From NCBI GenBank assembly GCA_030532135.1, contig JAUNLT010000002.1, positions 62,001 through 126,000 on the forward strand: 64,000 nucleotides of DNA, given 5' to 3'. Position numbers and translations under genes: made by a program. The stretch is from Lagierella massiliensis (GTDB lineage: Bacteria > Bacillota > Clostridia > Tissierellales > Peptoniphilaceae). Below, one piece after another: positions 734 to 46,727 of the stretch. The notes under the pieces were generated by a model. It made no database searches. It was not told where the DNA came from and worked only from the letters and a program-made list of their open reading frames with translations. The stretch's first letter is position 1. Every line of letters starts with the position of its first letter.

Positions 734-840
734 CACCTTTTACTATATTAATTTAGATTACAAAAGACTTAATTTGTCTAAAGATATTTAACAGCTTGAA
801 TAAATTGTTTTCTTAATATAAAATTTAATTGGGTGATAAT

Positions 841-1392
841 ATGGAAAAAAACACTCCTGAAGATCTCTTTAAAAAAATGCTCTTGCAGTTGGCTAAAGAG
901 AACAGACTGAAGAACCTAACTGTGGTTGATTTGGTGAATAAATCAGGACTTTCAAGACAGACATTTTATAGATATTTCTACAATATTGACGATTTGATAT
1001 ACTCTGTACATAGAGATATTGTCAAACCTGCTCACAAATCCATGGAACAATTAAACGACAGCTTTTTATTTTTAGACTTATATGTAAGACTTATGGACAA
1101 TTACAGATTTTATTATAAGCAAATTATTTCATTTAACCCTCATACTCCATTTGTAGATAAGTATATTAATGAAACTAAAATACGTATGCTAAAATATACA
1201 TTTAATACTAATACCCATGAAATTCTTGAAAGTCAAAGACTTTATTTTGCATATACTTTCTACTACGTTGGATTTTGCATTACCCTTTTGGAATGGTTAA
1301 AAAATGACAATAATATCACAGCAAATGAGCTATATATCTCATATAGAAAATTAATTCCAGAAAGTCTAGTTCCTTATCTTTCAACAAAATAA
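841..1392 (+). CDS. TetR/AcrR family transcriptional regulator
   Basis: A 183-residue DNA-binding protein. Residues around 20-50 form a TetR helix-turn-helix ending in the typical SRQTFYRYFYNIDDL recognition region. The C-terminal ligand domain is helical and aromatic-rich, like the DhaS/TetR_C_8 group. The start is taken as ATG 841 because GGGTGAT lies just upstream; an in-frame TTG at 829 overlaps that site. The divergent neighbour is a membrane permease and an inverted repeat lies between them, so local autoregulation plus control of the permease is likely. The effector cannot be read from the sequence. Confidence 0.85.
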   Translation: MEKNTPEDLFKKMLLQLAKENRLKNLTVVDLVNKSGLSRQTFYRYFYNIDDLIYSVHRDIVKPAHKSMEQLNDSFLFLDLYVRLMDNYRFYYKQIISFNPHTPFVDKYINETKIRMLKYTFNTNTHEILESQRLYFAYTFYYVGFCITLLEWLKNDNNITANELYISYRKLIPESLVPYLSTK

Positions 1393-1431: not shown

Positions 1432-1443
1432 GCTAAACTTAGC
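1432..1443 (-). promoter_or_regulatory. Candidate SECIS hairpin of the radical SAM selenoprotein mRNA
   Basis: Thirteen bases after the in-frame UGA (1457-1459) the minus-strand RNA can fold GCUA-AGUU-UAGC, a short stem with a G/U-containing loop. Bacterial SECIS elements sit directly downstream of the UGA with a G and U exposed in the loop. The spacing to the loop matches the hairpin after the grdB UGA. The stop codon UAA of the extended reading frame is inside the hairpin. Prediction only. Confidence 0.4.
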
Positions 1444-2392
1444 TTAATGAACCTCCTCAAGATGATCCTGCTCCCGCAGTACATCCATAGCAGTGATTTC
1501 CGATAGAAATTTTCCTCTTAAAATCAAAATCTTCAGGTAAAGTCTTTATATTTAATTTTTGATTGCTATTTAATCCCATACTCAAATTGAAATCACAGTC
1601 GTAAATTTTTCCGTCATAGTCAACCGATATGGCATCAAGACACATTAATCCCTTTAATACTTCGTCATTAAAAGCAGTCTCAAGCTTTTTCATATATCTA
1701 TCATAATTAGAACTTTTTAAAAGCCAATTTTTAAATCTTCCTATAGGCATATTAGTAATAGAATAAAGATTATTAAAAATAATTCCGTACTCTTCTTTAA
1801 GTTTTTTTCTATAAATATCTTCAAGTTCTTTTTGATTTCCAGGTAATATTGCTCCCGATGGATTGTATACTAGATTTAAATTTAGTTTTTTTCCATATCC
1901 AAGTTCATTTAATTTTTTTAATACTATTATACTCGAATCGTAAACGCCATCTCCTCTAACCCTATCAGTTTTTGATTTTTCATAAAAAGGAAGGGATGCA
2001 AAAACCTCAACTTTATTTTCTTTTAAAAATTCTAAATCATATCCTTTTTTTAGGTAGATAGATAAATTTGTTCTTACGATTATATTTTCTGCAAAGTCTC
2101 TAAGTTCTTCAACTAAGTATTTAAATACTTTACTCATCTCTGGAGAACCTCCCGTTAAGTCAAGCACTTTAAAGTTTTCGCTTTTAAAGACTTTAATGCA
2201 CGCCTTTGCAGTTTCCATATCCATATCCTCTGTCATATGTGGTCCACAACTCAAATGACAGTGTTTGCAAGATAAGTTACATCTTCTAGTCAAATTAATT
2301 TGCATTGTAGAAGGTTTAGAATTAGAAATTAACTCACCTGCTCTTTTAAAAAAAGGGGTTATCACATTTTTGTTTTCTAAAGAAAAAGTCAT
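1439..2392 (-). CDS. Radical SAM / Cys-rich selenoprotein (ArsS/rSAM_SeCys family), Sec near C-terminus
   Basis: Radical SAM enzyme with the CxxxCxxC cluster motif at Cys38, Cys42, Cys45 and a further Cys49. A Cys-rich C-terminal domain (DUF3641-like) follows, ending NHCYGCTAGAGSS. An ordinary reading stops at TGA 1457-1459, but the frame continues Sec-Gly-Gly-Ser-Leu-Ser to TAA at 1439-1441, giving 317 residues with Sec312. GSS(C/U)GG is the characteristic C-terminal end of this family, so the UGA is read as selenocysteine, supported by selA, selB and tRNA-Sec in the same window. It is the last gene of the eight-gene cluster and overlaps the CMD gene by one base (TAATG). Homologues are annotated as arsenosugar-related ArsS; no arsM is present here, so the substrate is open. 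Confidence 0.9.
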
Positions 2393-2730
2393 TAAATTTC
2401 TAGCTCCTCAGCTACTTTTGTCATTTGAATTCCATGGGCAAGAACAGCTCCACCTGTAATGGCACTTGCAACATGTACCGCTTCCATCATCTGCTCTGTA
2501 GTATATCCACTTTCAAGTGACGCATTTGTATATGCTTCAATACAATATGGACAACTTACTGCATGGGCAACGGCAAGTGCAATTAAATTTTTTTCTCTGG
2601 TGGTAAGAGTTCCCTCTTGAAAAACAGGTCCATAATATTTTAAAAATGAGTCCCATAATTTTTTTCCATGCTCTCCAATTTTTCCATTATTGAAGTCTTC
2701 TAAATCTTTTCTTTCAAAATATTCTGCCAT
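2392..2730 (-). CDS. Carboxymuconolactone decarboxylase / AhpD-like protein with CPYC motif
   Basis: A 112-residue AhpD-fold protein with the redox motif Cys60-Pro-Tyr-Cys63 in AHAVSCPYCIEAY. This is the 'peroxidase-like' small protein that accompanies the radical SAM selenoprotein in many genomes; some relatives have Sec at the first Cys, but here it is TGT. It begins one base after the C_GCAxxG_C_C gene ends and overlaps the radical SAM start, so the genes are translationally coupled. A thiol-disulfide or peroxide-linked redox role is inferred from the motif; the substrate is unknown. Confidence 0.85.
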   Translation of the reverse strand: MAEYFERKDLEDFNNGKIGEHGKKLWDSFLKYYGPVFQEGTLTTREKNLIALAVAHAVSCPYCIEAYTNASLESGYTTEQMMEAVHVASAITGGAVLAHGIQMTKVAEELEI

Positions 2731-2731
2731 A

Positions 2732-3163
2732 TTAATTCTCCTTTAAAATCTTTTCTAATATTTCAATCGTTTCGTAGATTATGCTTGGGCAAATTTTATT
2801 GTATAGTGTTAAACCCTTTGAAAAAGCTTTTTTACTCTCTATTTCATCAATTTCTAAAATACTCTTACAAGTATTTGAAGGTGATTTTTCATTAAAGTAA
2901 TTATCAAATTCTCTTCTCTTTAGCTTGAATAAGTCCTTGTCTTTATTTGTAAAATCTGTTCCATAATAATGACCTAAAACTAAATACGCTGAAATTACTA
3001 CTCCACAAGTTTTGCCCTTCCCCATGCCACCCCCAAGTAAAGAAGTAAGTCTAAGGGCTTCATCAATTTCCATATTCAAGTCCTTTGCAAAATATGAAAA
3101 GACTATTTGTGCACAATTAAATCCTTTATCTTTCATTGTTTCAGCATAGTTTTTTGGCGTCAT
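2732..3163 (-). CDS. C_GCAxxG_C_C family (redox-associated) protein
   Basis: A 143-residue protein of the C_GCAxxG_C_C type: GFNCAQ with Cys17, then a glycine-rich GGGMGKGKTCG stretch with Cys53 and two later cysteines (in SNTCKS and KICPS). The four spaced cysteines probably bind a metal or Fe-S centre or form redox pairs; the family is uncharacterised as far as I know. It overlaps the upstream Fe-S protein gene by 4 bases (ATGA). Its place between an Fe-S oxidoreductase-like protein and the AhpD-like protein suggests an electron-transfer step. Confidence 0.8.
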   Translation of the reverse strand: MTPKNYAETMKDKGFNCAQIVFSYFAKDLNMEIDEALRLTSLLGGGMGKGKTCGVVISAYLVLGHYYGTDFTNKDKDLFKLKRREFDNYFNEKSPSNTCKSILEIDEIESKKAFSKGLTLYNKICPSIIYETIEILEKILKEN

Positions 3164-4113
3164 CTATCTCTCCTATAATTCCTCAATTCTAAGCTACCGG
3201 GAAGAAATTTCAGTTTTTCATCTTCTTTTATTCCTAAAATTTCACAAAGAATATGTCCTGTTAAATTTAGATTGCTTTTCTTAAACCTTCCTGAACAGCT
3301 TGCACAATAGGTGGTAATAGGAAGTTTTTTTTCTTTTAATTTTTCTATAAACCCATTTGCAATCTCTGGCTCAAATCCAATTGCAAGCCCACCTAATCCA
3401 CAACATTGTACCGATTCAAAGGGAGTTTCTAAATTTGGTACATAGTACTTTACATCATTGAGAACTTCTTTTGTTTCCCTATCAGGGCATGGAATAAATA
3501 AGTTTTTTTTCTCATATATTTTATCTCCAATTCCAAGTTCCCTAAGTTCTCTATAAATTGAAACCACTTCCACATCAAAATGCTCTTTAAAAAAATAGTA
3601 ACAATTCATACATGTGGTTACAATTCTTTTAACACCCTTCTCTTTAAAGATTTTATTTAGTCTATTTCTATCTCTATGTATTCTCTTTAAATCTCCTGTT
3701 TCAAAAATTGGCTTTCCACAACACTCTAGAGTAAAGTCTATGCCTTTTTCTAAAAATAAATCTATCAAAAATTTTGAAGTCTTCGGGTATTGTCTAGGAA
3801 ATGAACACCCTAAAAACAAGATCGTATCTGACTTTTTCTTTACAGTATTTCTAAATATATAAGGTGACTTTTCCAGTTTTATAAAAGTAAAACCTTTAGT
3901 TTCTCCCATTCTATGTATACTTGATATCTTTCTTCCATCCAAGTCAAGGGGACATACAACCTTACACTCACCACATAGAAAACAGCTATACTTTAAATCT
4001 ATTCGTTTTGTATAATCTTTTAAATTCAATTTGTATTTAGTTAAAAAATCACAGTTTTTAGTACATTTACCACATTCAATACATTTATCGCTTACATATT
4101 CTAAATAATTCAT
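3160..4113 (-). CDS. 4Fe-4S / CCG-domain (heterodisulfide reductase-like) protein
   Basis: 317 residues. The N-terminus carries two ferredoxin-type 4Fe-4S motifs (Cys11, 14, 17, 21 and Cys44, 47, 50, 54). Two CCG-type domains follow (CCGKP near 130 and CCGLGG near 235), each with a later CxxC (TTCMNCYYF and TYCASCSGRF). This is the HdrD/GlpC-like plan of proteins passing electrons to a disulfide or small-molecule acceptor. ATGA overlaps join it to the glycosyltransferase gene upstream and the C_GCAxxG_C_C gene downstream. It probably supplies electrons within the cluster; donor and acceptor are not evident. Confidence 0.8.
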   Translation of the reverse strand: MNYLEYVSDKCIECGKCTKNCDFLTKYKLNLKDYTKRIDLKYSCFLCGECKVVCPLDLDGRKISSIHRMGETKGFTFIKLEKSPYIFRNTVKKKSDTILFLGCSFPRQYPKTSKFLIDLFLEKGIDFTLECCGKPIFETGDLKRIHRDRNRLNKIFKEKGVKRIVTTCMNCYYFFKEHFDVEVVSIYRELRELGIGDKIYEKKNLFIPCPDRETKEVLNDVKYYVPNLETPFESVQCCGLGGLAIGFEPEIANGFIEKLKEKKLPITTYCASCSGRFKKSNLNLTGHILCEILGIKEDEKLKFLPGSLELRNYRRDR

Positions 4114-4778
4114 CTTATATCCTTATATAGTTGTGCTATAGTTTCAGGATTAACCCCTCGTCTATACATACTTTGATACTTTTGCATCTTATACATGGTC
4201 CTTATAATCCCTTCTCTTTCAAATCTAACAGACCTTGTGATAATTTTGCTATCACATTGATTTACTCTAATTCCCTGATTTTTTATATCTATTGATAATT
4301 TGTAATCCTCCATTATTGGAATTTCTTCAAATCCTCCTATTTCTTCAAATAGCTTTCTAGTCAAAAAAATTCCCTGGTCTCCAAACGCTATACCTCTTAA
4401 CTTAACTCTTAATCTTGACATTAGGCCACAAATTTTCATAAGTGGATGGTTTGAGTCAAAGTGTAGTTTTAGACAGCCAAATGGGCTAATCTCTAAACTT
4501 TTTTCTATTTCATTTAAAATATTGTCTTCAAATATACTATCACAATGTAAAAATAAAAGTATCTCTCCTGTAGACTGTTTGACACCATTATTCATCTGAA
4601 AACTTCTTCCCTTTTTTGAGATAATAAATCTCTCATTTGGATATTTTTGTTTAAGTTTAATATCTTCCTTGGTTATAACAAAAAGCAACTCATAAATTCC
4701 TTTTAGTTTTGTTTTTTGTGCTAAAAAGTTTTTAAAAGCTGCTTCTTCTTTATAAACGGGAACTATTATGGAAATCAT
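4110..4778 (-). CDS. Family 2 glycosyltransferase, TIGR04283-like (rSAM/selenodomain-associated)
   Basis: 222 residues with a GT-A fold: MISIIVPVYKEE at the N-terminus, a DxD-like LFLHCDS motif near residue 77, and the subfamily signature FGDQGIFL...GGFEEIPIMEDYKLS around 130-165. No membrane segment is evident. This subfamily occurs beside radical SAM selenoproteins and is named 'arsenosugar biosynthesis glycosyltransferase' in databases. What it glycosylates here is unknown. It is coupled to its neighbours by ATGA overlaps on both sides. Confidence 0.8.
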   Translation of the reverse strand: MISIIVPVYKEEAAFKNFLAQKTKLKGIYELLFVITKEDIKLKQKYPNERFIISKKGRSFQMNNGVKQSTGEILLFLHCDSIFEDNILNEIEKSLEISPFGCLKLHFDSNHPLMKICGLMSRLRVKLRGIAFGDQGIFLTRKLFEEIGGFEEIPIMEDYKLSIDIKNQGIRVNQCDSKIITRSVRFEREGIIRTMYKMQKYQSMYRRGVNPETIAQLYKDIR

Positions 4779-5434
4779 ATCTTGCCCTTTTTCTTTAAAT
4801 ATTTTGCCATTAAATTTGATATTATCACAAGTAAAATCATAAATATCACAGACATTAAAAACTCTATGGATCTATAGTCGATGGATTTATCTCCCATATT
4901 TAAATATACAATAGTCCCGGGCATAATGCCAAATATAGATATAATTATATACTTTTTAAGTCCTATATTTAATAATCCTGACATATAATTTATTATATTA
5001 TATGGGATAATTGGAGTAAGTCTTAATACAAATAAATAAAATCCAATATTAGTTTCTTTTGATTTCAATCTTTTTTTAACATCTTCGCTCAAGTGCTTTT
5101 CTAATAACTTATCCACTTGCTCTTTACCAATATACCTTGCAATAAGATACATTAAAATACAGTTTATTACAGCACCTATAATTGTATAAAAAGTTCCTTT
5201 CCATAACCCGAAGGCAATTCCTGCAGCAAGTGCAAGTACTGGAACTGGAAAGAAAAATATTGGAAGTATGGAGAATAATAAAATATATATTAAAGGTGCA
5301 AAAGAGCCACCTTTTTTGATAATCTCTCTAACTTTTTCAAAAGGCAAATATTTTAAAATTATTACCGATAGCACTAAAATTAGTACTATTAAAAGTATTT
5401 TAGTTTTTCTTTGTACGTTTTTCTTGTCTGTCAT
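4775..5434 (-). CDS. TVP38/TMEM64 (DedA superfamily) membrane protein, second copy
   Basis: 219 residues with about five membrane segments and the VTT/DedA-type core: FFPVPVLALAAGIAFG around 60-75, then LFVLRLTPIIPYNIINYMSG around 135-155. The family is thought to move lipids or small solutes across membranes. Its start lies 35 bases inside the preceding TVP38 gene, which it resembles in domain plan but not closely in sequence, so this is an old duplication or an obligate pair. Its presence in the cluster suggests membrane transport or processing of the pathway's product. Confidence 0.8.
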   Translation of the reverse strand: MTDKKNVQRKTKILLIVLILVLSVIILKYLPFEKVREIIKKGGSFAPLIYILLFSILPIFFFPVPVLALAAGIAFGLWKGTFYTIIGAVINCILMYLIARYIGKEQVDKLLEKHLSEDVKKRLKSKETNIGFYLFVLRLTPIIPYNIINYMSGLLNIGLKKYIIISIFGIMPGTIVYLNMGDKSIDYRSIEFLMSVIFMILLVIISNLMAKYLKKKGKI

Positions 5435-6113
5435 TGTATATCTTCTTAACCATATATAAAATTACTGAAAGTGCAAATAAGCTTAGAAGTCCGATTACTA
5501 GAGTCTTAGCTGACCCACTTAACTCGCCCACCTTTGAGTATATGATTGTGGCAGGAAGTTGACCAAGTCCTGTTGCGACAAAGAACTTCCAAAAGGACAT
5601 GGGAGTAAGTCCTGCAGCATAACTTACTGCATCAAATGAAATAAAAGGAAGAAGTCTACAAACTAAGATAGTATAATTACCATATTTTTCAAAAAACTCA
5701 TCTACAGATTCAAGCGCAGTCTTAGTTGCAATTTTTTCTACCACATCTCTACCAAGGATTCTAGAAATGTAAAAACACATTACAGCTCCTACCATGGCAG
5801 AAGACCATGAGAGTAAAGCTCCCTTTGCCCACCCAAATATTGCTGCATTTGCTAGGGTTATGAAAAAGGCAGGTACAGGCGATATGATGGACTGAAGTAT
5901 CATAAGTAAAAATGAAATTATAGCAGCATATGTCCCATAACTTCTTATATAATTTATCACACCGTCTAGATCCAATTTAGTGAGGGTCTTTATAGAACTA
6001 TTTATTCCTTTATTTATTGACGGAACAAAAAAATACAAAAGCAAACAAATTCCAAGGATAAGTAAAAGCACTATTCTCCTTTTACTTTCAGAGGTCATAT
6101 TCTTATTGTCCAT
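5400..6113 (-). CDS. TVP38/TMEM64 (DedA superfamily) membrane protein, first copy
   Basis: 237 residues. There is one N-terminal membrane anchor (about 13-30), then the VTT domain with SPVPAFFITLANAAIFG around 75-95 and VCRLLPFISFDAVSYAAGLTP around 150-170. The C-terminus is basic. It overlaps the preceding DUF2064 gene by 11 bases and the following TVP38 gene by 35, showing one co-translated operon. Function is inferred only at family level. Confidence 0.8.
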   Translation of the reverse strand: MDNKNMTSESKRRIVLLLILGICLLLYFFVPSINKGINSSIKTLTKLDLDGVINYIRSYGTYAAIISFLLMILQSIISPVPAFFITLANAAIFGWAKGALLSWSSAMVGAVMCFYISRILGRDVVEKIATKTALESVDEFFEKYGNYTILVCRLLPFISFDAVSYAAGLTPMSFWKFFVATGLGQLPATIIYSKVGELSGSAKTLVIGLLSLFALSVILYMVKKIYNDRQEKRTKKN

Positions 6114-6741
6114 ATTTTATAATCCTTTCAAATTCACAAATATTCTTGTTTTTATTTCCTGTTATTAAATTAAAATCTCCTATGTCATCCACATCCAAAA
6201 TTTCTTCAAGTAAACCATAGGTCAATCTGGTTTCTACAATTCTTTGAATTAGATTCTTAAGCACTTCACTGTGACCAGATTTCTCTTCATTAAAAATTTC
6301 ATGTCTTTTCTTCATTCCGATTAATCCATATCCCCCATCTTTTACAGGGCCTATGACAATATCTTTTGTATCTAACATGTTAAAAGCCTTATCCATGTAG
6401 GACTTGTCAATCCCAACAATGTCCGAACCTACAAGTATCACCTTATCATAGCCCTTTTCAAGGGTTTCGTAGATGGAATTTGCTATCTTTTCATTCAAAT
6501 TTTTGCCCTTTTGACCATAAAACTTCTCAAATTTTAAAATACTTTCCATTAAATCAACTTTTTCTATAGGATATATATATATGAAAATATCTCTTTTTGT
6601 ACTTTTTATACAATTGAATATATTTTCTAGTAAAATGGTATGAATTTTACAACTATCTTCCTTTGAAAAATCCGGCATCAACCGAGTCTTAGTTTTTCCT
6701 GGCACTGGCACTCTTGTAAATAATATAATCGCTTCTCTCAT
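6103..6741 (-). CDS. DUF2064 / TIGR04282-like nucleotidyl- or glycosyl-transferase
   Basis: 212 residues with the GT-A-like fold of the TIGR04282 family: LFTRVPVPGKTKTRLMP at the N-terminus (loop binding a nucleotide-sugar or NTP), VGSDIVGID near 102 and DGGYGLIGM near 137. It is first in the cluster and pairs with the TIGR04283-type enzyme at 4110. The ATG at 6741 fits the family N-terminus but has no Shine-Dalgarno; a terminator hairpin ends only a few bases upstream. Product unknown; the database label 'arsenosugar biosynthesis' is not supported here by an arsM gene. Confidence 0.8.
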   Translation of the reverse strand: MREAIILFTRVPVPGKTKTRLMPDFSKEDSCKIHTILLENIFNCIKSTKRDIFIYIYPIEKVDLMESILKFEKFYGQKGKNLNEKIANSIYETLEKGYDKVILVGSDIVGIDKSYMDKAFNMLDTKDIVIGPVKDGGYGLIGMKKRHEIFNEEKSGHSEVLKNLIQRIVETRLTYGLLEEILDVDDIGDFNLITGNKNKNICEFERIIKYGQ

Positions 6742-6787: not shown

Positions 6788-7525
6788 CTATTTTACCAAG
6801 TCATATTCGTATTCTTTTGTTCCTTCAATAACATTGAATACTTCATATCCTTTTTCCTCTAGAGCCTTAGCTACTTCACTGCTCTTATTTCCTGTAAAAC
6901 AGTAAGCTATAACAGGTTTTCCCTCAGGAACTTTGTCCATATTGTCATCTACAGCATCAAATGGTACTGAAACCGCTCCCTCAATATGTCCTTCTTTGTA
7001 ATCTTCTTCAGGTCTTGCATCAACAACTGTTGCATCATCCTTCATAGCTAGAAAATCTTTTGCAGTAAGATTTGAATAAGTTACAATATTTTCATATTCG
7101 TAAGATTTAACTCCGTCTGCATTTGTAACGTCTTTATATCCGTTTTCTACCAATATATCTGCTACTTTTCCACTTTTATTTCCAGTGTTACAGTATAGTA
7201 TAATTGGAAAATCTTTATAATCAGCTAAAACTTCTGGGTCCGCTTCAACATCGTCTATTGGAACGTTTATCGCATGTTTTAAATGACCTTCATCGTATTC
7301 TTCTTTAGATCTTACATCAACTACTAAAACTTTATCTTTCTTTTTATTATCAGCTTGTAAAGCATCTAGTTCTTTACCATCCATAGTCTTCACATCCGCT
7401 ACTTGATCACTAACAGCTTGACCATTACTGTCAGTTGCATTATTAGTGTCTCCTGGTTTATCACAAGCAGTTAGAGTTAATGCAGATACTGCTACAATTC
7501 CTAATAAGATTCTTTTAAAATTCAT
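6788..7525 (-). CDS. Double-rhodanese lipoprotein
   Basis: 245 residues. A signal peptide with lipobox LTAC puts the lipidated Cys at residue 21. Two rhodanese domains follow (about 48-140 and 150-245), each with its own active Cys loop: LYCNTGNKSG and AYCFTGNKSS. Both keep the Cys, unlike two-domain thiosulfate sulfurtransferases whose N-terminal domain is inactive, so this looks like a recent internal duplication of a single-domain sulfur carrier. Located outside the membrane, it could carry sulfane sulfur or selenium. It lies upstream of the selenoprotein cluster but is separated by a terminator. Confidence 0.85.
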   Translation of the reverse strand: MNFKRILLGIVAVSALTLTACDKPGDTNNATDSNGQAVSDQVADVKTMDGKELDALQADNKKKDKVLVVDVRSKEEYDEGHLKHAINVPIDDVEADPEVLADYKDFPIILYCNTGNKSGKVADILVENGYKDVTNADGVKSYEYENIVTYSNLTAKDFLAMKDDATVVDARPEEDYKEGHIEGAVSVPFDAVDDNMDKVPEGKPVIAYCFTGNKSSEVAKALEEKGYEVFNVIEGTKEYEYDLVK

Positions 7526-7631: not shown

Positions 7632-8132
7632 TTAGTTTAGTTTTTTTATCTCTTCAAAAGCCTTATCAAAATCCACCGCATTAGTTGACTCAGAAACATA
7701 CTCTGTATAAGTTATCTTACCATCTCTGTCAACTATAATTATTCCCCTTTGCAATAACATATTTTCTTCCATAAGAAATCCATACTTTTTACCAAAGTCA
7801 TGTCCGTTGTAATCTGATACCACAACTACATTTTCAATTCCTTTAGAGGCACAGTATCTTTGTTGTGCAAAAGGTAAATCCACAGAAATTGTAATTATTT
7901 TTACATCTTTCCCAAGTTCTTCTACCTTTTCATTAAAGGTTCTAGTTTGTATATCACATACAGGAGTGTCCACTGAAGGAACTACTGAATACACTACTAC
8001 TTTTCCCTTGTCTTCTGTTGAATTATAAACAGAAAGGTCTGTATTAACAGCTTTAAATTCAGGTGCCAAATCACCTACTTTAACTTGCTCTCCTATGATT
8101 GTTACAGGCTTGTTTCCAAATGTTGTTTTCAT
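7632..8132 (-). CDS. tpx: Thiol peroxidase (atypical 2-Cys peroxiredoxin)
   Basis: 166 residues, the usual Tpx length. The peroxidatic Cys59 is in PSVDTPVC and the resolving Cys94 in PFAQQRYC. It reduces hydroperoxides in the cytoplasm using thioredoxin, which fits the thioredoxin reductase in the grd operon. Some anaerobes carry Sec in this position, but here the codon is a normal Cys. The start ATG follows an AGGAGG-type site (CCTCCT on the plus strand at 8142-8147). It is divergent from the rhodanese gene at 8276 and monocistronic, or co-transcribed with the downstream rhodanese gene. Confidence 0.93.
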   Translation of the reverse strand: MKTTFGNKPVTIIGEQVKVGDLAPEFKAVNTDLSVYNSTEDKGKVVVYSVVPSVDTPVCDIQTRTFNEKVEELGKDVKIITISVDLPFAQQRYCASKGIENVVVVSDYNGHDFGKKYGFLMEENMLLQRGIIIVDRDGKITYTEYVSESTNAVDFDKAFEEIKKLN

Positions 8133-8275
8133 AATTTAAACCTCCTAAATTATTGTATTAATTAACATACGTTATATACCCTATAAATATGTATTAAACC
8201 TTTTATGTATATTTATAGAAAATCTAAATAATGTATGATAAAATTGTTTTAGTTAAATAAGAAAGGAAGATGTAT

Positions 8276-9367
8276 TTGAAAAGATATTTTAAATTTGCTT
8301 TAATGCTTTTAGTTATTACTTTTACCTTTACATCCTGCAAAAGTGATAATGAAGAAATAAAATCTACAGAAGAAGCGACAAAGTCAAATCAAATCCAAAA
8401 TGAAACAAAAGAGCTATCCACAAATCTGGAAATAAAACCTGTAATAGAAGAAAAAAGGGTTTATGTGGACGTGGATTGGGCAAAAGAATTTTTAGATAAT
8501 ACTGCCAAAGAGGATTATGTCCTTGCTGAAGTTACTTGGGGTGAAGAAAAAGATAGTCCCGACTATTTAAAAAAGCACATTCCTGGTGCAATTCACATAA
8601 ATACCGATATGGTGGAAGAAGGACCCGTTTGGAATTATAGAAGCCCTAACGAGCTTGAAAAAAATTTCTTAAATCTCGGAATTACTTCAAATAAAACTCT
8701 ATTATTATATGGACCAGATACTGGAGCCGATAGGGTTGCTCTTGCAGCCTTATACATGGGAGTTGAAGATGTAAAGATAATAGATGGTAGACTTAATGTT
8801 TGGGAAGAAAATGGGTTTGAAACTGAAGAAGGTTTAGTGAAACCTAAAGCAGAAACTGACTTTGGTATAAAAACTCCTGCCCATCCTGAATTTATTATTG
8901 ACATAGAAGAAGTTAATCAAAAACTAGAAAATGAAAAGGACTTCGAACTAGTATCTGTACGTTCAAAAGAAGAATGGCTAGGTGAAACCTCTGGTTATAG
9001 CTATATTCCAAAAGCTGGAGAGCCTAAAGGTGCAAAGTGGGGAGATTCCGGTCTTGGAAATAGCGGAATGGAAAATTACTGGAATGAAGATAATACTGTT
9101 AGAGATTTTAAAGAAATTGTATCAAAGTGGAATACAAACAATATAACTCTTACAAATAATATGTCCTTTTACTGTGGAACCGGTTGGAGAGCCGCAACAC
9201 CCTTTTTAATGATGTATGAAAGGGGATATGATGTAACTTTATTTGATGGTGGCTGGAATGAATGGCAGATGAATGATGAATTAGAAGCTCAAATAGGAGA
9301 TCCTAACTCAGCTGAATTTAAATATGAAAAGGTAGGAGATTTATCTGATGACAAAGCGACAAAATAA
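8276..9367 (+). CDS. Two-domain rhodanese (sulfurtransferase) lipoprotein
   Basis: About 363 residues from TTG 8276. The ATG at 8270 directly abuts the GAAAGGAAG ribosome binding site, so TTG six bases further is the better start. A signal peptide with lipobox FTSC is followed by two rhodanese domains. The first has LLYGPDTGADR, lacking the catalytic Cys. The second has FYCGTGWRAATPF with the active Cys. This is the thiosulfate/3-mercaptopyruvate sulfurtransferase plan with an inactive first domain. It acts outside the membrane. The next gene overlaps its end by 20 bases. Confidence 0.85.
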   Translation: MKRYFKFALMLLVITFTFTSCKSDNEEIKSTEEATKSNQIQNETKELSTNLEIKPVIEEKRVYVDVDWAKEFLDNTAKEDYVLAEVTWGEEKDSPDYLKKHIPGAIHINTDMVEEGPVWNYRSPNELEKNFLNLGITSNKTLLLYGPDTGADRVALAALYMGVEDVKIIDGRLNVWEENGFETEEGLVKPKAETDFGIKTPAHPEFIIDIEEVNQKLENEKDFELVSVRSKEEWLGETSGYSYIPKAGEPKGAKWGDSGLGNSGMENYWNEDNTVRDFKEIVSKWNTNNITLTNNMSFYCGTGWRAATPFLMMYERGYDVTLFDGGWNEWQMNDELEAQIGDPNSAEFKYEKVGDLSDDKATK

Positions 9368-40151: not shown

Positions 40152-40248
40152 TGGCGGGAATGCGTGGGAATCGAACCCACCCGAGAAGCTCCTAACCCCT
40201 CATACTGGTTTTGAAGACCAGAGAGCACACCAGCACTCATTCACTCCC
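40152..40248 (-). tRNA. selC: tRNA-Sec (anticodon UCA)
   Basis: 97 bases with the features of bacterial tRNA-Sec. Anticodon stem CUGGU/ACCAG holds the loop CUUCAAA with anticodon UCA. There is a 6-bp D stem GAGUGC/GUGCUC with a tiny UGGU loop, and a long variable arm GAGGGG...CUUCUC. The T arm is GUGGG-UUCGAUU-CCCAC and the end is GCCA with CCA encoded. The 8-position acceptor stem GGGAGUGA/GCAUUCCC has one G-U pair and an A-G mismatch at its last position. It lies downstream of selB on the same strand. Confidence 0.97.
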
Positions 40249-40320
40249 ACATCACATATATTCTACCATATTTTTATAATAATGAGAAATTTCTTGTATT
40301 TAATTTTTTTATTTTAATAT

Positions 40321-42201
40321 CTATACAAGGATTCTATAATCATCAACCCTTCTTGTCAGTTTGATACTATCAAAATAATCTAGTATTAAAAGTACATTTT
40401 TTCTGCTTGAACCGAGTATATCTCTAGCCTCTGAAACTGTAATTTTGCCATTATCTTCTAAATATCCTATAATTTTCTCTCTTGCCATTTCAAAGTCTTT
40501 TTTCAATAAGATATTTTTTTCAGATCCAAATACAATAATCTCATCTCCTGCCATAAACTCAAGTACTTGTCTTTTCTCCTTATCTTTACCACTCAAAGAA
40601 GAAATATTTTCAATCTTCTCAAGTCCATTACTTTGGATTTCATGTAAAAGCTCTTCTTTTACTTTTTTCTGTTTAGGACTTAAGGTTACTTTATGACTTG
40701 CTAGACCAAAGTTTTTTGAAATTTCTACTATAGTATTTTTTTCCGTCATAAGTTCTAGAATATACTCAAGCTCTCTTAAATTTAATTCATATGAGGATTG
40801 AGTCAAAATCTCATTCTTTGTCATTCCTAAAGCTAGTGGGTTTTTCTCATGAAATCTCTCTAATATATCTTTTATATTTTCCACGATTTTCATAAAAACC
40901 TGCTCACTAACATAGCGATCCACTATTTTAAAAAGTCTTTTTTTATCAATCAGATTAGATACTTCTTGTCCTACTACATCTTTATTTTCTCCCGTATAGG
41001 AAATTATTTCTTTTAAAGATAATAAACCGTCCTCAGAATTTGCAAACTGAACTATTATATCTTCCAGTTCCCCCTGTTCCTTAATCTGCAGTTGCTTTAC
41101 AAGCTCTTCGTCTATGTTGTGTTTTTTAGCTAAAGGCTCAATAATTATACCCCCACCAATGGTTTCTACCGGTGAATAAGAACGAAATACAAACCTATCT
41201 CTATTTCTACATACAAGAGGTTCCTCAAGTCTTAGTTGAACAAAACCTTCCTCTCCTTGATTTATCTCTTCTTGATCCAAAGGTACAGCCCTACAAAATA
41301 TTTCTCTAGTTCCTATTCCCAGTCTAAGTCTCATCCAGTGATGTATTGGAAAATCCGCAGAATTTGAAACCATTACTTTACAATCCACAATATTTGTCGT
41401 TATAACAGAACCTTCTTTTGCAATTACATCCCCTCTTTTTATATCTCCCGACTTAATCCCAGAGAGATTTATCGCAGTTCTTTGCCCTGCATATGCGGTA
41501 TCTTCATCTTTACCATGTACTTGAATAGACCTTACCTTTGCAACTTTTCCCTCAGGATAGATGAAAACATCATCTCCCTTAGAAATTTTTCCTTCCATAA
41601 GAGTTCCTGTAATAACTATTCCTATTCCTTTTACTGGAAAAGCCCTATCTATATTCATCCTAAAAGGCGTATCTGATTTTTTTTCTTCCACAAGCTCACT
41701 TTCCTGAGCAATTAACGCTTTTAAATCTTCAATTCCCCTTAAAGAAATTGAATCTACTTCTATAATAGGAGCATCTTGTAAAAAAGTACCCTTTGCAAAA
41801 TCTTTAAGCTCTTCCTTTACTAATATCAAGTATTCTTCTTCTACCATATCCGATTTAGTCAAGACGATAATTCCCCTATGAACATCCATGTACGATAAAA
41901 TATCTAAGTGTTCTTTACTTTGAGGCATAACCCCTTCATCAGCCGCAATTATAAACAAAACTAAATCGATACCTGTTGCACCAGCCATCATATTCTTTAT
42001 AAATTTCTCATGACCTGGCACATCTACAATACCTATCCTGTTGCCATTAGGTAAATCTAAATAGGTAAATCCTAAGTTAATGGATATACCCCTTTTCTTT
42101 TCTTCCTGTAAAGTGTCAGTTTCTCTACCAGTTAAAGCCTTAACCAAAGTAGTCTTGCCATGATCAATATGACCGGCAGTTCCTATAATAATATTTTTCA
42201 T
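40321..42201 (-). CDS. selB: Selenocysteine-specific elongation factor SelB
   Basis: 626 residues from ATG 42201, with AAGGAG upstream. The N-terminal EF-Tu-like GTPase has GTAGHIDHGKTTLVKALTG, DVPGHEKFIKNM and LTKSDM. Beta-barrel domains follow, and the C-terminal half carries winged-helix repeats that bind the SECIS hairpin (about 440-626). It delivers Sec-tRNA to UGA codons, needed for grdA, grdB and the radical SAM selenoprotein. Its start overlaps the selA stop (TAATG), so the two are co-translated. Confidence 0.97.
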   Translation of the reverse strand: MKNIIIGTAGHIDHGKTTLVKALTGRETDTLQEEKKRGISINLGFTYLDLPNGNRIGIVDVPGHEKFIKNMMAGATGIDLVLFIIAADEGVMPQSKEHLDILSYMDVHRGIIVLTKSDMVEEEYLILVKEELKDFAKGTFLQDAPIIEVDSISLRGIEDLKALIAQESELVEEKKSDTPFRMNIDRAFPVKGIGIVITGTLMEGKISKGDDVFIYPEGKVAKVRSIQVHGKDEDTAYAGQRTAINLSGIKSGDIKRGDVIAKEGSVITTNIVDCKVMVSNSADFPIHHWMRLRLGIGTREIFCRAVPLDQEEINQGEEGFVQLRLEEPLVCRNRDRFVFRSYSPVETIGGGIIIEPLAKKHNIDEELVKQLQIKEQGELEDIIVQFANSEDGLLSLKEIISYTGENKDVVGQEVSNLIDKKRLFKIVDRYVSEQVFMKIVENIKDILERFHEKNPLALGMTKNEILTQSSYELNLRELEYILELMTEKNTIVEISKNFGLASHKVTLSPKQKKVKEELLHEIQSNGLEKIENISSLSGKDKEKRQVLEFMAGDEIIVFGSEKNILLKKDFEMAREKIIGYLEDNGKITVSEARDILGSSRKNVLLILDYFDSIKLTRRVDDYRILV

Positions 42202-43613
42202 TATAAACTCCTTGGAAAACAATTTTCGATTTCTTCAGCAATCCTATCAAAATCCTTATCATTTAAAGTCCTTAAATCCAGCATATACCTATCATCTTTT
42301 ATCCTTCCAATGACATGGATTTTTGAAAGCCTTAAAGTCTCCTCAATTTTAACAGAGCTAACCCCTTCTCCTTGAAGGACTATGACTTTAGAATCAAATT
42401 CCTCTCCTGGCATAGAACCTCCACCTACAGTAGATTTTTCATCCTCGACATTCACTTTTAAAAAAGTGTTTTTATCTTCAATTTTAGATTTTAAAACATT
42501 AGCTCTAACTTCAAGTTCCTCTGGTGTATAGGTAATCATTCTTATTGTGGGAATGTGTTTTTTTGCCTTTTCTTCATCAAAGTACATTCTAATTGTACAT
42601 TCAAGCGCTGCTAGAGTAAATTTATCAACTCTTAACGCTCTAAGAATCTGGTTTTTCTTCATCTTATCTATATGTTCTTTCTTCCCAACAATAATTCCCG
42701 CTTGAGGCCCTCCAAGCAATTTGTCTCCACTAAATGTTATAAGATCAATACCCGACTTAATAGATTCAGAAATTGTGGGTTCGTGGGGAAGTCCATACTC
42801 CTCCATGTTAAAATAAACACCACTTCCCAAATCTTCAACCACCGGCAAATTGTACTTATCTCCAAGTTCTTTCAATTCCCTATTTGATACGGCATCAGTA
42901 AATCCTATCATCTTATAATTGCTAGTGTGTACTTTCATGAGTACAGAAGTTTCTTCAGTAATGGCGTCTTCATAGTCAGAGATTCTAGTTTTATTAGTAG
43001 ATCCCACTTCCACAAGTTTTGCACCACTCATGGACATTACAGAAGGTATTCTAAAAGCTCCACCAACTTCTACTAGTTCTCCCCTCGATACAATCGCCTC
43101 TTTATCTTTGGCGAAAGTATTTAAAACTAAAAAAACTGCAGCAGCATTATTATTTACAATGAGTGCATCCTCAACTCCAAATAAAAGTTTTATCATCTTC
43201 GTAACATGAGAATACCTTGAGCCCCTCTTGCCCTTTTCAATATCGTATTCTAAGTTGGAATATCCTGAAATTATATTCCAAATTTCATCTTTAAGCGAAT
43301 CATCCAATAATGACCTTCCCAGGTTAGTGTGAAGAATTGTTCCCGTTCCATTAATAACATTTAATAAAGAAGGAGAAAATTCTTGCTCCAATTTAATTTC
43401 TACCTGCTGTACAATATTTTCAAAACCCAACTTATGAAATATCCTCTCAATTGTTTCATCTGTCGAACCTACAATTTCTTTTCTAAGTTCATCTAACACA
43501 TCTCTAATTGCTTTTGTCTTAAGAACTCTAGAGTATTCAAGTTCACTAATTTTATTTGATTTAAGAATCTCTTCAACTTGAGGAATCCTTTTAAACAAGT
43601 CTTTTTTTGTCAT
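42201..43613 (-). CDS. selA: L-seryl-tRNA(Sec) selenium transferase SelA
   Basis: 470 residues, normal for SelA. The PLP lysine is in TFSGDKLLGGPQAGIIVG; the N-terminal domain binds tRNA-Sec (INGTGTILHTNLGRSLL). It converts Ser-tRNA-Sec to Sec-tRNA-Sec using selenophosphate. First gene of selA-selB-selC. selD, which makes selenophosphate, is not in the window. Confidence 0.97.
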   Translation of the reverse strand: MTKKDLFKRIPQVEEILKSNKISELEYSRVLKTKAIRDVLDELRKEIVGSTDETIERIFHKLGFENIVQQVEIKLEQEFSPSLLNVINGTGTILHTNLGRSLLDDSLKDEIWNIISGYSNLEYDIEKGKRGSRYSHVTKMIKLLFGVEDALIVNNNAAAVFLVLNTFAKDKEAIVSRGELVEVGGAFRIPSVMSMSGAKLVEVGSTNKTRISDYEDAITEETSVLMKVHTSNYKMIGFTDAVSNRELKELGDKYNLPVVEDLGSGVYFNMEEYGLPHEPTISESIKSGIDLITFSGDKLLGGPQAGIIVGKKEHIDKMKKNQILRALRVDKFTLAALECTIRMYFDEEKAKKHIPTIRMITYTPEELEVRANVLKSKIEDKNTFLKVNVEDEKSTVGGGSMPGEEFDSKVIVLQGEGVSSVKIEETLRLSKIHVIGRIKDDRYMLDLRTLNDKDFDRIAEEIENCFPRSL

Positions 43614-44445: not shown

Positions 44446-45384
44446 ATGGATAATATTTATGATATTATTATAATTGGTGGAGGTCCTGCAGGTCTTACTT
44501 GTGGACTATACTCTTCACGAGCTAAACTTAAAACTCTGGTTATAGAAAAAGGCAGTATGGGTGGACAGATGTTTCTAACTGGAAGCGTTGAAAACTATCC
44601 AGGTTCCCCTGAGGGATCTACTGGTATGTCCCTTACTGAAAGATTCAAAGAACAGGCTATAAGCTTTGGTACTGAAATCGTAAAAGATACGGTTGAAAAA
44701 TTAGAGCTTGATGACAAAATCAAAATAGTCAAAGGTGAATCAAAAACCTACAGAGCTAAGACAATTGTTTTAGCCACTGGAGCAACTCCAAAAAAAGTTG
44801 GAGTACCTGGCGAAATGGAATTTGCTGGAAAAGGAGTTTCCTATTGTGCAACCTGCGATGGTGCTTTTTTCCAAGACTTAGATATTATAGTAATTGGAAG
44901 TGGTAATTCTGCTTTTGAAGAAGCAATAGAACTTACAAAGTTTGGTAAAAAAGTATATTTGGCACATAGAAAAGACCTTTCAAAAGTAACTCCTGTTATT
45001 CTTGAAAGAGCTAGAGAAAACGAAAAGATCCAGTTCCTTTCTGAAGAAGAAATTCAGGAAATAAAAGGCGATGGTTTCGTTAAATCTGTAGTCTTTAAAA
45101 ACTCAAGTACTGATGAAGTGACTGAACTTACTATAAAAGATGGCGATCCTACCATGGGAGTATTCATCTTTATAGGAGCTAAACCAAACTCAGATCTTGT
45201 CAAAGGTTTTAAAAATTTAGATAACGGGTATATCGTAACCGACAGCGAAATGCAAACCGAAGTACCGGGAGTATTTGCTGTAGGAGATGTAAGGTCTACC
45301 CCAGTAAGGCAAATAGTTACTGCTGCATCTGATGGAGCGATTGCTTCCATAAGCGCGGTAAGATATATTTTAGAAAACTTTTAA
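44446..45384 (+). CDS. trxB: Thioredoxin reductase
   Basis: 312 residues. FAD motif IIGGGPAGLTCGLYSSRA, redox-active CATCDGAFF (CxxC) near 135, NADPH-binding IGSGNSAFEEAIELT, and FAVGDVRS near the C-terminus. It passes electrons from NAD(P)H to thioredoxin, the reductant of glycine reductase selenoprotein A. In related operons trxA follows; here grdE follows instead after a 56-base gap. Confidence 0.96.
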   Translation: MDNIYDIIIIGGGPAGLTCGLYSSRAKLKTLVIEKGSMGGQMFLTGSVENYPGSPEGSTGMSLTERFKEQAISFGTEIVKDTVEKLELDDKIKIVKGESKTYRAKTIVLATGATPKKVGVPGEMEFAGKGVSYCATCDGAFFQDLDIIVIGSGNSAFEEAIELTKFGKKVYLAHRKDLSKVTPVILERARENEKIQFLSEEEIQEIKGDGFVKSVVFKNSSTDEVTELTIKDGDPTMGVFIFIGAKPNSDLVKGFKNLDNGYIVTDSEMQTEVPGVFAVGDVRSTPVRQIVTAASDGAIASISAVRYILENF

Positions 45385-45440: not shown

Positions 45441-46727
45441 ATGAAATTAGAATTAGGCAAAATCTTTATTAAAGATATCCAATTTTCTGATTCATCAAAA
45501 ATCGAAGACGGTGTCCTTTATGTAAATAAGGATGAGTTATTAGAAGCTGTCTCAGGAGACGAGCATATTAAATCAATTGACTTTGATATTGCTAGACCTG
45601 GAGAAAGTGTTAGAATAACTCCTGTTAAGGATGTTCTTGAACCTAGAGTTAAGGTTGAAGGCCCTGGAGCAGTATTCCCTGGAATCCTTAATAAAGTTGA
45701 TACCGTTGGTGAAGGCAAGACACATGCTCTTAAGGGAATGGCTGTTGTTACTACTGGTAAGATAGTTGGTTTCCAAGAAGGTATTATCGACATGGTTGGA
45801 GAAGGTGCTGATTATACACCATTCTCAAAAACTATTAACTTAGTTGTTGTAGCTGAACCTGTTGATGGTATTAAACAACATGTGCACGAAAACGCTGTAA
45901 GAATGATTGGTCTTAAGGCTGCAAACTACATTGGAGAACTTGCAAGAGATATTACTCCTGATGAAGTTTCAACTTATGAAACAAAGCCATTATTAGAGCA
46001 AATCAACGAATATCCTGATCTTCCAAAGGTAGCTTACGTATACATGCTACAAACTCAAGGTTTGTTACATGATACCTACGTATATGGTGTAGATGCTAAA
46101 CAAATAGTACCTACTATCCTTTACCCTACAGAAATCATGGATGGAGCTATCGTAAGTGGTAACTGTGTTTCTGCATGCGATAAGAACCCAACTTACGTTC
46201 ACTTAAATAATGGTGTTATTGAAGACCTTTATGCAAGACATGGTAAAGATTACAACTTCGTAGGTGTAATTATTACTAACGAGAACGTGTACCTAATGGA
46301 TAAAGAAAGATCTTCAAACTGGACTTCAAAGTTAGTTGAATACCTTGGAGTTGACGCTGTTATAGTATCTCAAGAAGGTTTCGGAAACCCTGATACTGAC
46401 TTGATCATGAACTGTAAGAAGATTGAAAACAAAGGTGTTAAGACTGTAATCGTAACTGACGAATACGCTGGTAGAGACGGTGCTTCTCAATCATTAGCTG
46501 ACGCTGATGAAAAAGCAAACGCAGTAGTTACTGGTGGAAATGCTAACCAAGTAGTAGTACTTCCTAAGTTAGATAAGATTATAGGACATGTAGAGTACGT
46601 TGATATTATAGCTGGTGGAGCTAAAGGTTCTCTAAGAGAAGATGGAACTATCGAAGTTGAGATCCAAGCTATTACTGGTGCTACTAATGAAACTGGATTC
46701 AATTATTTAACGTCTAAAGGTTATTAA
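45441..46727 (+). CDS. grdE: Glycine reductase component B, GrdE proprotein
   Basis: 428 residues. GrdE is made as a proprotein cleaved at an Asn-Cys bond to create a pyruvoyl group; here the site is SGN-CVSACDK with Cys242. The two fragments form the 25- and 22-kDa subunits of the substrate-binding protein B, which forms a Schiff base with glycine. GGAGGTG precedes the ATG. It partners with grdB. Confidence 0.95.
   Translation: MKLELGKIFIKDIQFSDSSKIEDGVLYVNKDELLEAVSGDEHIKSIDFDIARPGESVRITPVKDVLEPRVKVEGPGAVFPGILNKVDTVGEGKTHALKGMAVVTTGKIVGFQEGIIDMVGEGADYTPFSKTINLVVVAEPVDGIKQHVHENAVRMIGLKAANYIGELARDITPDEVSTYETKPLLEQINEYPDLPKVAYVYMLQTQGLLHDTYVYGVDAKQIVPTILYPTEIMDGAIVSGNCVSACDKNPTYVHLNNGVIEDLYARHGKDYNFVGVIITNENVYLMDKERSSNWTSKLVEYLGVDAVIVSQEGFGNPDTDLIMNCKKIENKGVKTVIVTDEYAGRDGASQSLADADEKANAVVTGGNANQVVVLPKLDKIIGHVEYVDIIAGGAKGSLREDGTIEVEIQAITGATNETGFNYLTSKGY

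Follow-up and report, generated by a model that had tools for sequence, protein, structure and literature searches.

What is made by the tightly packed gene run near the start of this stretch of Lagierella massiliensis DNA? The stretch, 64,000 nucleotides of contig JAUNLT010000002.1 (positions 62,001 to 126,000) and hereafter called the window, carries on its minus strand eight open reading frames (1439..6741), among them the gene for the radical SAM enzyme ArsS and two genes that NCBI names after the cyanobacterial arsenosugar pathway, and it contains neither arsM nor arsR. An earlier description made from the letters alone, the sequence-only reading, had concluded from this that the cluster makes some other product. 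We arrive at a different answer. The cluster belongs to a real and conserved pathway that has an annotated key enzyme and takes a variant form, with selenocysteine (Sec) codons in both arsS and arsM, a core that can separate from ArsS and is mostly paired either with it or with an importer, and a membrane part homologous to orphan genes of Escherichia coli. On balance, we lean towards a nine-gene pathway of two modules, in which ArsS would make, or a YnjBCD-type transporter would import, a 5'-modified adenosine whose sugar is then activated and attached at the membrane by the core; going by the genes involved, arsenic is likely to be part of the product.

The case for arsenic starts outside the window. 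The genome of the window's bacterium, 65% complete, holds an arsM gene on another contig (G000:C5:30518-31273; NF008823, 269 bits against a cut-off of 263, with its UGA read as Cys). This gene has an in-frame UGA of its own (MYGT-UGA-VAG), and just upstream lies a gene for an ArsR-type regulator that scores above the NCBIfam cut-off; the pair spans about 30.5-31.7 kb of the same contig (L070:8543-9670). Both same-genus genomes, G083 and G084, have this arsR-arsM pair too, the two genes adjoining. The regulator gene that flanks the cluster itself is TetR-like; the arsR gene adjoins the unlinked arsM instead. Thus the lack of arsM and arsR holds for the window only, and since both genes occur elsewhere in the genome and ArsM co-occurs with ArsS, the argument for a different product fails, and we reject it. 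The sequence-only reading had itself named an arsM elsewhere in the genome, consistently co-regulated with the cluster, or an arsenosugar product as evidence that would speak against it; of this, an arsM elsewhere that follows arsS from genome to genome is what is found. In a survey of 130 genomes of the family, in which genes in mapped loci were counted with our own hidden Markov models (HMMs), ArsS scores above cut-off in 29, and an ArsM-like gene is present in 26 of these and in 10 of the 101 genomes without ArsS (Fisher 4e-16). The ArsM threshold of at least 180 bits is our own choice: the curated 263 bits is reached by 6 of the 130 genomes, and the next scores under 180 are 145, a second match in a genome already counted, and then 68. 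Within genus g3, ArsM accompanies ArsS in 3 of 4 genomes and occurs in none of the 27 that lack ArsS. SelB also follows ArsS (27/29 versus 21/101). The comparison of arsM with the Sec machinery that had been called for thus finds both associations strong; yet the one does not replace the other, because ArsM tracks ArsS even among genomes that have SelB (25/27 with ArsS versus 10/21 without, p 8e-4).

The ArsM proteins themselves are of two types: of the 26 genomes with both genes, 17 have a short one with a UGA in the match and 9 only a long one of about 355 residues, for which NF008823 is the best model at 184-191 bits, under its cut-off, in the two scanned. This long gene lies directly downstream of arsS in the g3 genomes G020, G021 and G032. 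A long ArsM-like protein of about 355 residues, with a Cys-rich tail, is also encoded in G083. Among named ArsS loci, for which our counts cover the best 80 of at least 592 matching stretches (two of the 80, L091 and L092, apparently being family genomes G021 and G103), 24 have arsM no more than 10 kb from ArsS. To look outside the family, 291 genomes were sampled evenly across the class, 9 of them family members and 282 new, and in 40 chosen from the 282 an ArsM-like gene is present in 2 of the 7 that have the core (G405, G236) and in 0 of the 33 that do not.

ArsS is encoded at 1439..2392 (minus strand; TIGR04167, 383 bits, cut-off 300; DUF3641). An in-frame UGA at 1457-1459 precedes the true stop TAA at 1439-1441, and reading through it gives the C-terminus CTAGAGSSUGGSLS. 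Across 18 aligned ArsS rows, with U written as C, the motif CxxxCxxC and the C-terminal CxxCTAGxGSS[C/U] are invariant; among the 29 family members, the Sec position is UGA in 15 and Cys in 14, and SelB is above cut-off in 15 of the 15 genomes whose ArsS is of the UGA type. The machinery that both ArsS and ArsM would need is encoded in the window (40152..42222, minus strand), with an ARAGORN tRNA-SeC at 40152-40248 and SelB (TIGR00475, 363 bits) at 40330-42192 (G000:C16:102330-104192), and the gene after selB, at 42201-43613, looks by eye like SelA. On sequence grounds, then, ArsS is a bacterial selenoprotein, with UGA where homologues have Cys and the Sec machinery in the window. A short hairpin with an AGUU loop 3' of the UGA (1432..1443, minus strand) is a candidate apical stem of a Sec insertion sequence. 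Of the 15 relatives with UGA, 11 have AGUU in or at the loop of a hairpin at a comparable position, with different stem letters; since the folding z score is below -2 in only 3 of the 15 and is -0.06 in the window, the candidate is unproven.

Homology mapping of the fetched loci divides the genes into a module of ahpD and arsS, which can stand apart, and a core composed of a rhodanese, TIGR04282, two VTT proteins, TIGR04283, an HdrD-like protein and usually a C_GCAxxG_C_C protein. The core genes are close together in most fetched loci, on both strands in genera g3 and g34, and spread over separate loci in g134; the rhodanese and C_GCAxxG_C_C genes are found in some core loci, not all. Strong matches to TIGR04282 and TIGR04283 (at least 126 and 168 bits, thresholds that we set ourselves, and leaving out a 68-position TIGR04282 fragment in G027 at 32 bits) occur in exactly the same 42 family genomes, also where arsS sits elsewhere in the genome, so that the core accompanies 29/29 genomes with ArsS and 13/101 without (p 3e-19). 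In G002-G005, G007, G008 and G085, arsS is solitary and away from the core. Of the best 80 ArsS loci, 67 have an AhpD homologue (own HMM, at least 40 bits) within 10 kb, 41 a TIGR04282 or TIGR04283 homologue, and 28 neither of the glycosyltransferase genes nor ArsM nearby. G088 and G062 encode their TIGR04283 and TIGR04282 homologues as a single fusion protein (L172:6950-8281, L173:5883-8607), which adds to the evidence that they work together. Many core-bearing genomes have TIGR04282 joined to an APH-type domain (PF01636 above cut-off in the three scanned), and in others this domain is encoded by a separate gene.

It is the genomes with a core and no ArsS that suggest where the substrate may otherwise come from. 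In G122 and G045, whose core loci lack ArsS, the core is followed by genes for a binding protein, a pair of permeases and an ATPase that match E. coli YnjB, YnjC and YnjD (YnjB E 5e-66), an ATP-binding cassette (ABC) transporter. Strong YnjB matches (E below 1e-80, again our own threshold) occur in 13 of the 130 family genomes, all with the core; nine have the gene no more than 10 kb from core genes, and four (G049, G063, G105 and G107) have it elsewhere in the genome. In all 13 an APH-type domain is fused to or beside TIGR04282, or beside YnjB. Among the 42 core-bearing genomes, YnjB is present in 2 of the 29 with ArsS versus 11 of the 13 without (p 1.3e-6). In all of the 13 YnjB-bearing genomes but G073, hence in 12, YnjBCD has a nucleoside hydrolase gene (PF01156 above cut-off in 3/3 scanned) linked to it. 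At E below 1e-20, strong hydrolase matches occur in 16 genomes, a fair count that keeps G027 and the stop-bearing G048; 15 of the 16 have the core, and the 16th, G027, has the TIGR04282 fragment beside the hydrolase. The gene also sits inside the core of G016 and G021, which have ArsS and no YnjB, as has G048 with its copy. Stop-bearing hydrolase copies lie beside core genes or a TIGR04282 remnant at G048:C28:39052-39927 and G027:C5:351-1794, which indicates that the module is decaying in some genomes. Outside the family, 7 of the 282 further genomes have the core and 7/7 of these have YnjB; in G267, G236 and G381, a stretch of no more than 15 kb contains the importer genes together with those for TIGR04283, TIGR04282, the APH-type, VTT and HdrD-like proteins. 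Altogether, 47 of 49 core-bearing genomes have at least one of the two sources, ArsS or YnjB, and on a tree of the 49 TIGR04283 sequences (in which the G088 row, only 39% filled, sits on a very long branch) the label 'ArsS only' requires no fewer than 5 changes on branches with good support. What is observed of the two-module model is its gene content, co-occurrence, linkage, domain fusions and Sec codon.

How might these proteins work together? In Synechocystis, ArsM and ArsS start arsenosugar synthesis (PMC8552651), and a radical SAM enzyme adenosylates arsenic in that synthesis (PMC12159101). In the two-module pathway, the AhpD-like protein and ArsS would add a 5'-deoxyadenosyl radical to a substrate, yielding a 5'-modified adenosine, and the substrate would most likely be dimethylarsenite from the ArsM selenoprotein, whose gene is unlinked, following the published example of cyanobacterial ArsM/ArsS. 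In genomes that lack ArsS the core would mostly be retained, with the nucleoside imported through the YnjBCD-type transporter. Base removal, a nucleosidase step of the kind proposed for an algal arsenosugar lipid (PMC10456119), would fall to the in-cluster nucleoside hydrolase in some relatives and to another enzyme in the window's bacterium. The sugar may then be phosphorylated by the APH-type domain in many relatives, TIGR04282 would make a donor resembling a nucleoside diphosphate sugar, and TIGR04283 would transfer the sugar to an acceptor. Finally, we infer that the two VTT proteins may carry the sugar across the membrane in lipid-linked or phosphorylated form, and that the HdrD-like, C_GCAxxG_C_C, AhpD and rhodanese proteins may keep the metalloid or thiol chemistry reduced. 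Every one of these reactions, as well as the arsenic, is something that we infer. The resemblance to the cyanobacterial pathway lies in the ArsS equivalog and in the presence of ArsM in the same genome. Unlike there, both enzymes here are encoded with UGA, arsM is unlinked, VTT, HdrD-like, C_GCAxxG_C_C and rhodanese genes are added, and relatives of the bacterium show an import variant. The cluster and its relatives would thereby supply a candidate set for the steps after ArsS: nucleoside hydrolase, APH-type domain, CofC-like fold and GT2 transferase.

Several observations weigh against this pathway. Strong ArsM is missing in 5 of 32 genomes with ArsS, namely 3 of 29 in the family (G007, G016 and G069, which are 95, 99 and 81% complete) and 2 of 3 outside it (G295 and G315, 100 and 99% complete), and only 5 phylogenetically independent pairs bear on ArsS and ArsM (same direction in about 3, opposite in about 0). 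Among the 13 core genomes without ArsS, 8 also lack strong ArsM. TIGR04282 and TIGR04283 are therefore not proof of arsenosugars, and we reject the view that they signify arsenosugars by themselves; the doubt that had been cast on their database names is borne out to this extent. The import branch has its own difficulties: G036 and G037 have the core and neither ArsS nor YnjB, three genomes outside the family have YnjB and no core, and the two sources are not exclusive outside the family, because all three core genomes with ArsS there (G295, G315 and G405, from one genus) also have YnjB. Well-supported branches give 5 independent pairs for ArsS and YnjB, of which about 4 show the two in opposite directions and 0 in the same direction, and with so few the test cannot reach significance (p at best 0.0625). 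The phosphorylation is the weakest step, because the catalytic loop of the APH-type domain reads NTE in 11/11 aligned rows (L042, L172, L182, L183, L200, L201, L233, L234, L235, L237, L242) in place of the HGD that APH kinases carry. Kinase activity is thus doubtful, and perhaps these APH-fold proteins, to judge by that motif, are not ordinary kinases; a PDB search finds only aminoglycoside-type phosphotransferases, weakly. Lastly, in the window's genus the cluster contains neither an APH nor a nucleoside hydrolase nor a YnjB gene, and YnjB has no match in the window's own 65% complete genome, nor in G083 or G084.

It is from ArsS without ArsM, from the core without ArsM and from the missing importer, hydrolase and APH genes in the genus that the main rival draws its strength. 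Here the same two modules would build a metabolite with selenium, sulfur or another element, ArsS would adenosylate another nucleophile, and arsM would co-occur merely because both suit selenium-using anaerobes. The two rhodaneses and the AhpD, C_GCAxxG_C_C and HdrD-like genes suggest thiol or persulfide chemistry, and the SelB counts, the five genomes with ArsS and no strong ArsM and the eight core genomes with neither are all in keeping with it. Against it stand the ArsM link within SelB-bearing genomes and the arsM-like genes that adjoin arsS in G020, G021 and G032 or lie within 10 kb in 24 of the best 80 (of at least 592) loci, and the characterised enzyme acts on arsenic (PMC12159101). 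We regard a selenium or sulfur metabolite as a real possibility, if not a probable one. Perhaps, alternatively, ArsM and ArsS simply neutralise arsenite as arsenosugars that the core exports, with nothing imported for use. The arsR-arsM pair in the window's genome fits such detoxification, as do the VTT proteins, which are membrane proteins of a transport-type family. However, in genomes without ArsS the core travels with a binding-protein-dependent ABC transporter, which is the importer type, and with the nucleoside hydrolase; the scanned flanks (TetR-like, thiol peroxidase, two rhodaneses) are not arsenic genes, in a scan that included no search aimed at the arsenic efflux genes arsB or acr3. 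Plain detoxification is thus decidedly unlikely. More unlikely still is the view that the core serves a glycolipid or lipid-carrier pathway of the envelope that has nothing to do with ArsS and is linked to it by chance or shared redox needs: 13 of 42 core genomes without ArsS, the solitary arsS genes and a weak similarity of the second VTT protein to UptA (50 bits, cut-off 250) would suit it, but the presence of the core in 29/29 genomes with ArsS versus 13/101 without, the 41 of the best 80 (of at least 592) ArsS loci with a TIGR04282 or TIGR04283 homologue within 10 kb, and the core in 15 of 16 genomes with a strong nucleoside hydrolase match speak against it.

The locus itself is much as it had been described. 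All eight reading frames are on the minus strand at the positions given, although the run is not overlapping throughout: six of seven junctions overlap, by 11, 35, 4, 4, 4 and 1 bases, and the C_GCAxxG_C_C and ahpD genes are separated by a 1-base gap. The identities proposed (two glycosyltransferases, two VTT proteins, HdrD-like, C_GCAxxG_C_C, AhpD-like with CPYC, radical SAM selenoprotein) agree with NCBIfam, Pfam and motifs, and curated models name 7 of the 8 proteins above cut-off, the HdrD-like one being the exception. In both same-genus genomes the eight genes recur contiguously in identical order, which argues that their linkage is not due to chance, and the proposal of a membrane-linked sugar pathway is supported in part. 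A ninth gene had been missed: 46 bases upstream of the run lies the first gene of the core, for a lipoprotein with two rhodanese domains (6788..7525, minus strand; PF00581, two stretches), with Cys21 and two active-site-like Cys (YCNTGNK, YCFTGNK) and 98 bits against NF045521 'rhoda_near_glyco', under the cut-off of 145. A homologue is directly upstream of TIGR04282 in G083, G084, G046, G047, G048, G054, G055, G069, G070 and G077.

The other genes follow, all on the minus strand. The TIGR04282/DUF2064 protein (6103..6741; 158 bits, cut-off 134; PF01983 CofC 37.5, cut-off 22) has a CofC-like nucleotidyltransferase fold; its sole solid match in the PDB is 3cgx, a 'putative nucleotide-diphospho-sugar transferase' (E 7e-22), and across 25 aligned rows K18, R20, G105, D107, D135, G137, D183 and D185 are invariant, the Lys, Arg and Asp residues being typical of that fold. 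Next come the two VTT/DedA-type membrane proteins, VTT2 (5400..6113; PF09335, 98 bits, cut-off 33.9) and VTT1 (4775..5434; 96 bits, same cut-off), the GT2-type glycosyltransferase TIGR04283 (4110..4778; 203 bits, cut-off 182) and the HdrD-like protein (3160..4113; PF02754, 53 bits, cut-off 20.6, two stretches), which has CxxCxxCxxxC twice, as two 4Fe-4S motifs, and CCG at 131 and 237, and for which NCBIfam gives no equivalog above cut-off. The C_GCAxxG_C_C family redox protein (2732..3163; TIGR01909 62 bits, cut-off 47.4; PF09719 81, cut-off 27) keeps four Cys (17, 53, 99, 125), with TCGVV replacing the GCAxxG of the family name, and the AhpD/CMD-type protein with CPYC (2392..2730; TIGR04169, 155 bits, cut-off 120) completes the run before arsS.

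The membrane part has its counterpart in E. coli K-12, whose annotation lists ydjX (DedA), ydjY (4Fe-4S), ydjZ (DedA), ynjA (AhpD-like), ynjBCD (ABC) and ynjE (rhodanese). YdjZ is a clear homologue of VTT2, reaching 310 bits against the family VTT2 HMM (phmmer E 7e-76), and the nearest match of VTT1 is YdjX at 116 bits. As in the E. coli group, an iron-sulfur protein is encoded among the VTT genes, a YnjE homologue next door and YnjBCD homologues in core-bearing relatives; unlike the window, E. coli, which served as control genome, has no TIGR04282 match. YdjY and YnjA are unmatched by the HMMs of the window's family at E up to 1, so we reject the equations of the AhpD-like protein with YnjA and of the HdrD-like protein with YdjY. 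A YdjY homologue lies beside the cluster in G100. The YnjE homologue of the window (8270..9367, plus strand; phmmer E 3e-63) is a rhodanese lipoprotein divergent from the cluster, its site FYCGTGWR is identical to that of K-12 YnjE, and such a gene is also close to the cluster in G083 and G084. In E. coli, ydjXYZ-ynjABCD and ynjE are listed as FNR-regulated operons, with ynjE directly activated (PMC3688515), and ynjABCDEFI group genetically with Suf genes (PMC3930520); in the accessible parts of the open-access literature we found no substrate named for the YnjBCD and VTT genes.

Methionine salvage removes the base with methylthioadenosine nucleosidase and then uses an APH-fold methylthioribose kinase, and the pathway proposed here would follow a similar logic, in which a 5'-modified ribose loses its base and is then phosphorylated; a difference is that the APH-type domain here lacks the usual catalytic HGD. 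The neighbourhood also resembles those of TrsS, listed as a radical SAM selenoprotein (PMC13188914), and DVU_1555, where such an enzyme occurs with C_GCAxxG_C_C and dicluster proteins. However, we reject membership of the TrsS system, since ArsS scores 29 bits against the TrsS model NF045646 (cut-off 490), and the cluster proteins are not members of the dicluster (100 bits, cut-off 530) or DVU_1555 (59, cut-off 103) families either. Nor is the VTT pair the undecaprenyl-phosphate transporter UptA, an identity rejected at 28 and 50 bits against NF052604 (cut-off 250).

Around the cluster, a thiol peroxidase gene (7632-8132; NF001808) adjoins the YnjE homologue, in identical order in both same-genus genomes. 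A TetR-like protein, possibly a regulator, is encoded facing the 3' end of the cluster (829..1392, plus strand; weak TetR_N and TetR_C_8 matches under cut-off); a homologue holds the equivalent position in G083, and none was detected in the fetched stretch of G084. A search of phage records with the cluster DNA gave no match. ARAGORN also calls a 'tRNA-Stop (tta)' at 324-408, inside a coding-looking region and probably false. The frame at 45441-46727 (plus strand), after a thioredoxin-reductase-like one at 44446-45384, looks by eye like glycine/proline-reductase-type precursors.

A warning follows for annotation, in that the NCBI label 'arsenosugar biosynthesis glycosyltransferase', given to TIGR04282 and TIGR04283, also lands on genomes without ArsS or strong ArsM. 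The cluster and its relatives offer a testable gene set for what follows ArsS in arsenosugar-type synthesis; in the open-access literature we came across no account of one. One may go further and propose that bacteria with ArsS make a 5'-modified, probably arsenical, adenosine that others import through YnjBCD, with the orphan genes ydjXYZ-ynjABCDE as the importing half of the same pathway in E. coli, a proposal that is speculative and somewhat improbable as it stands. It would give YnjBCD and its VTT partners, whose genes belong to the FNR regulon in E. coli, a concrete class of substrates for the first time, namely 5'-modified nucleosides. If it is true, many anaerobes would share a metalloid-nucleoside economy of which we know no earlier description.

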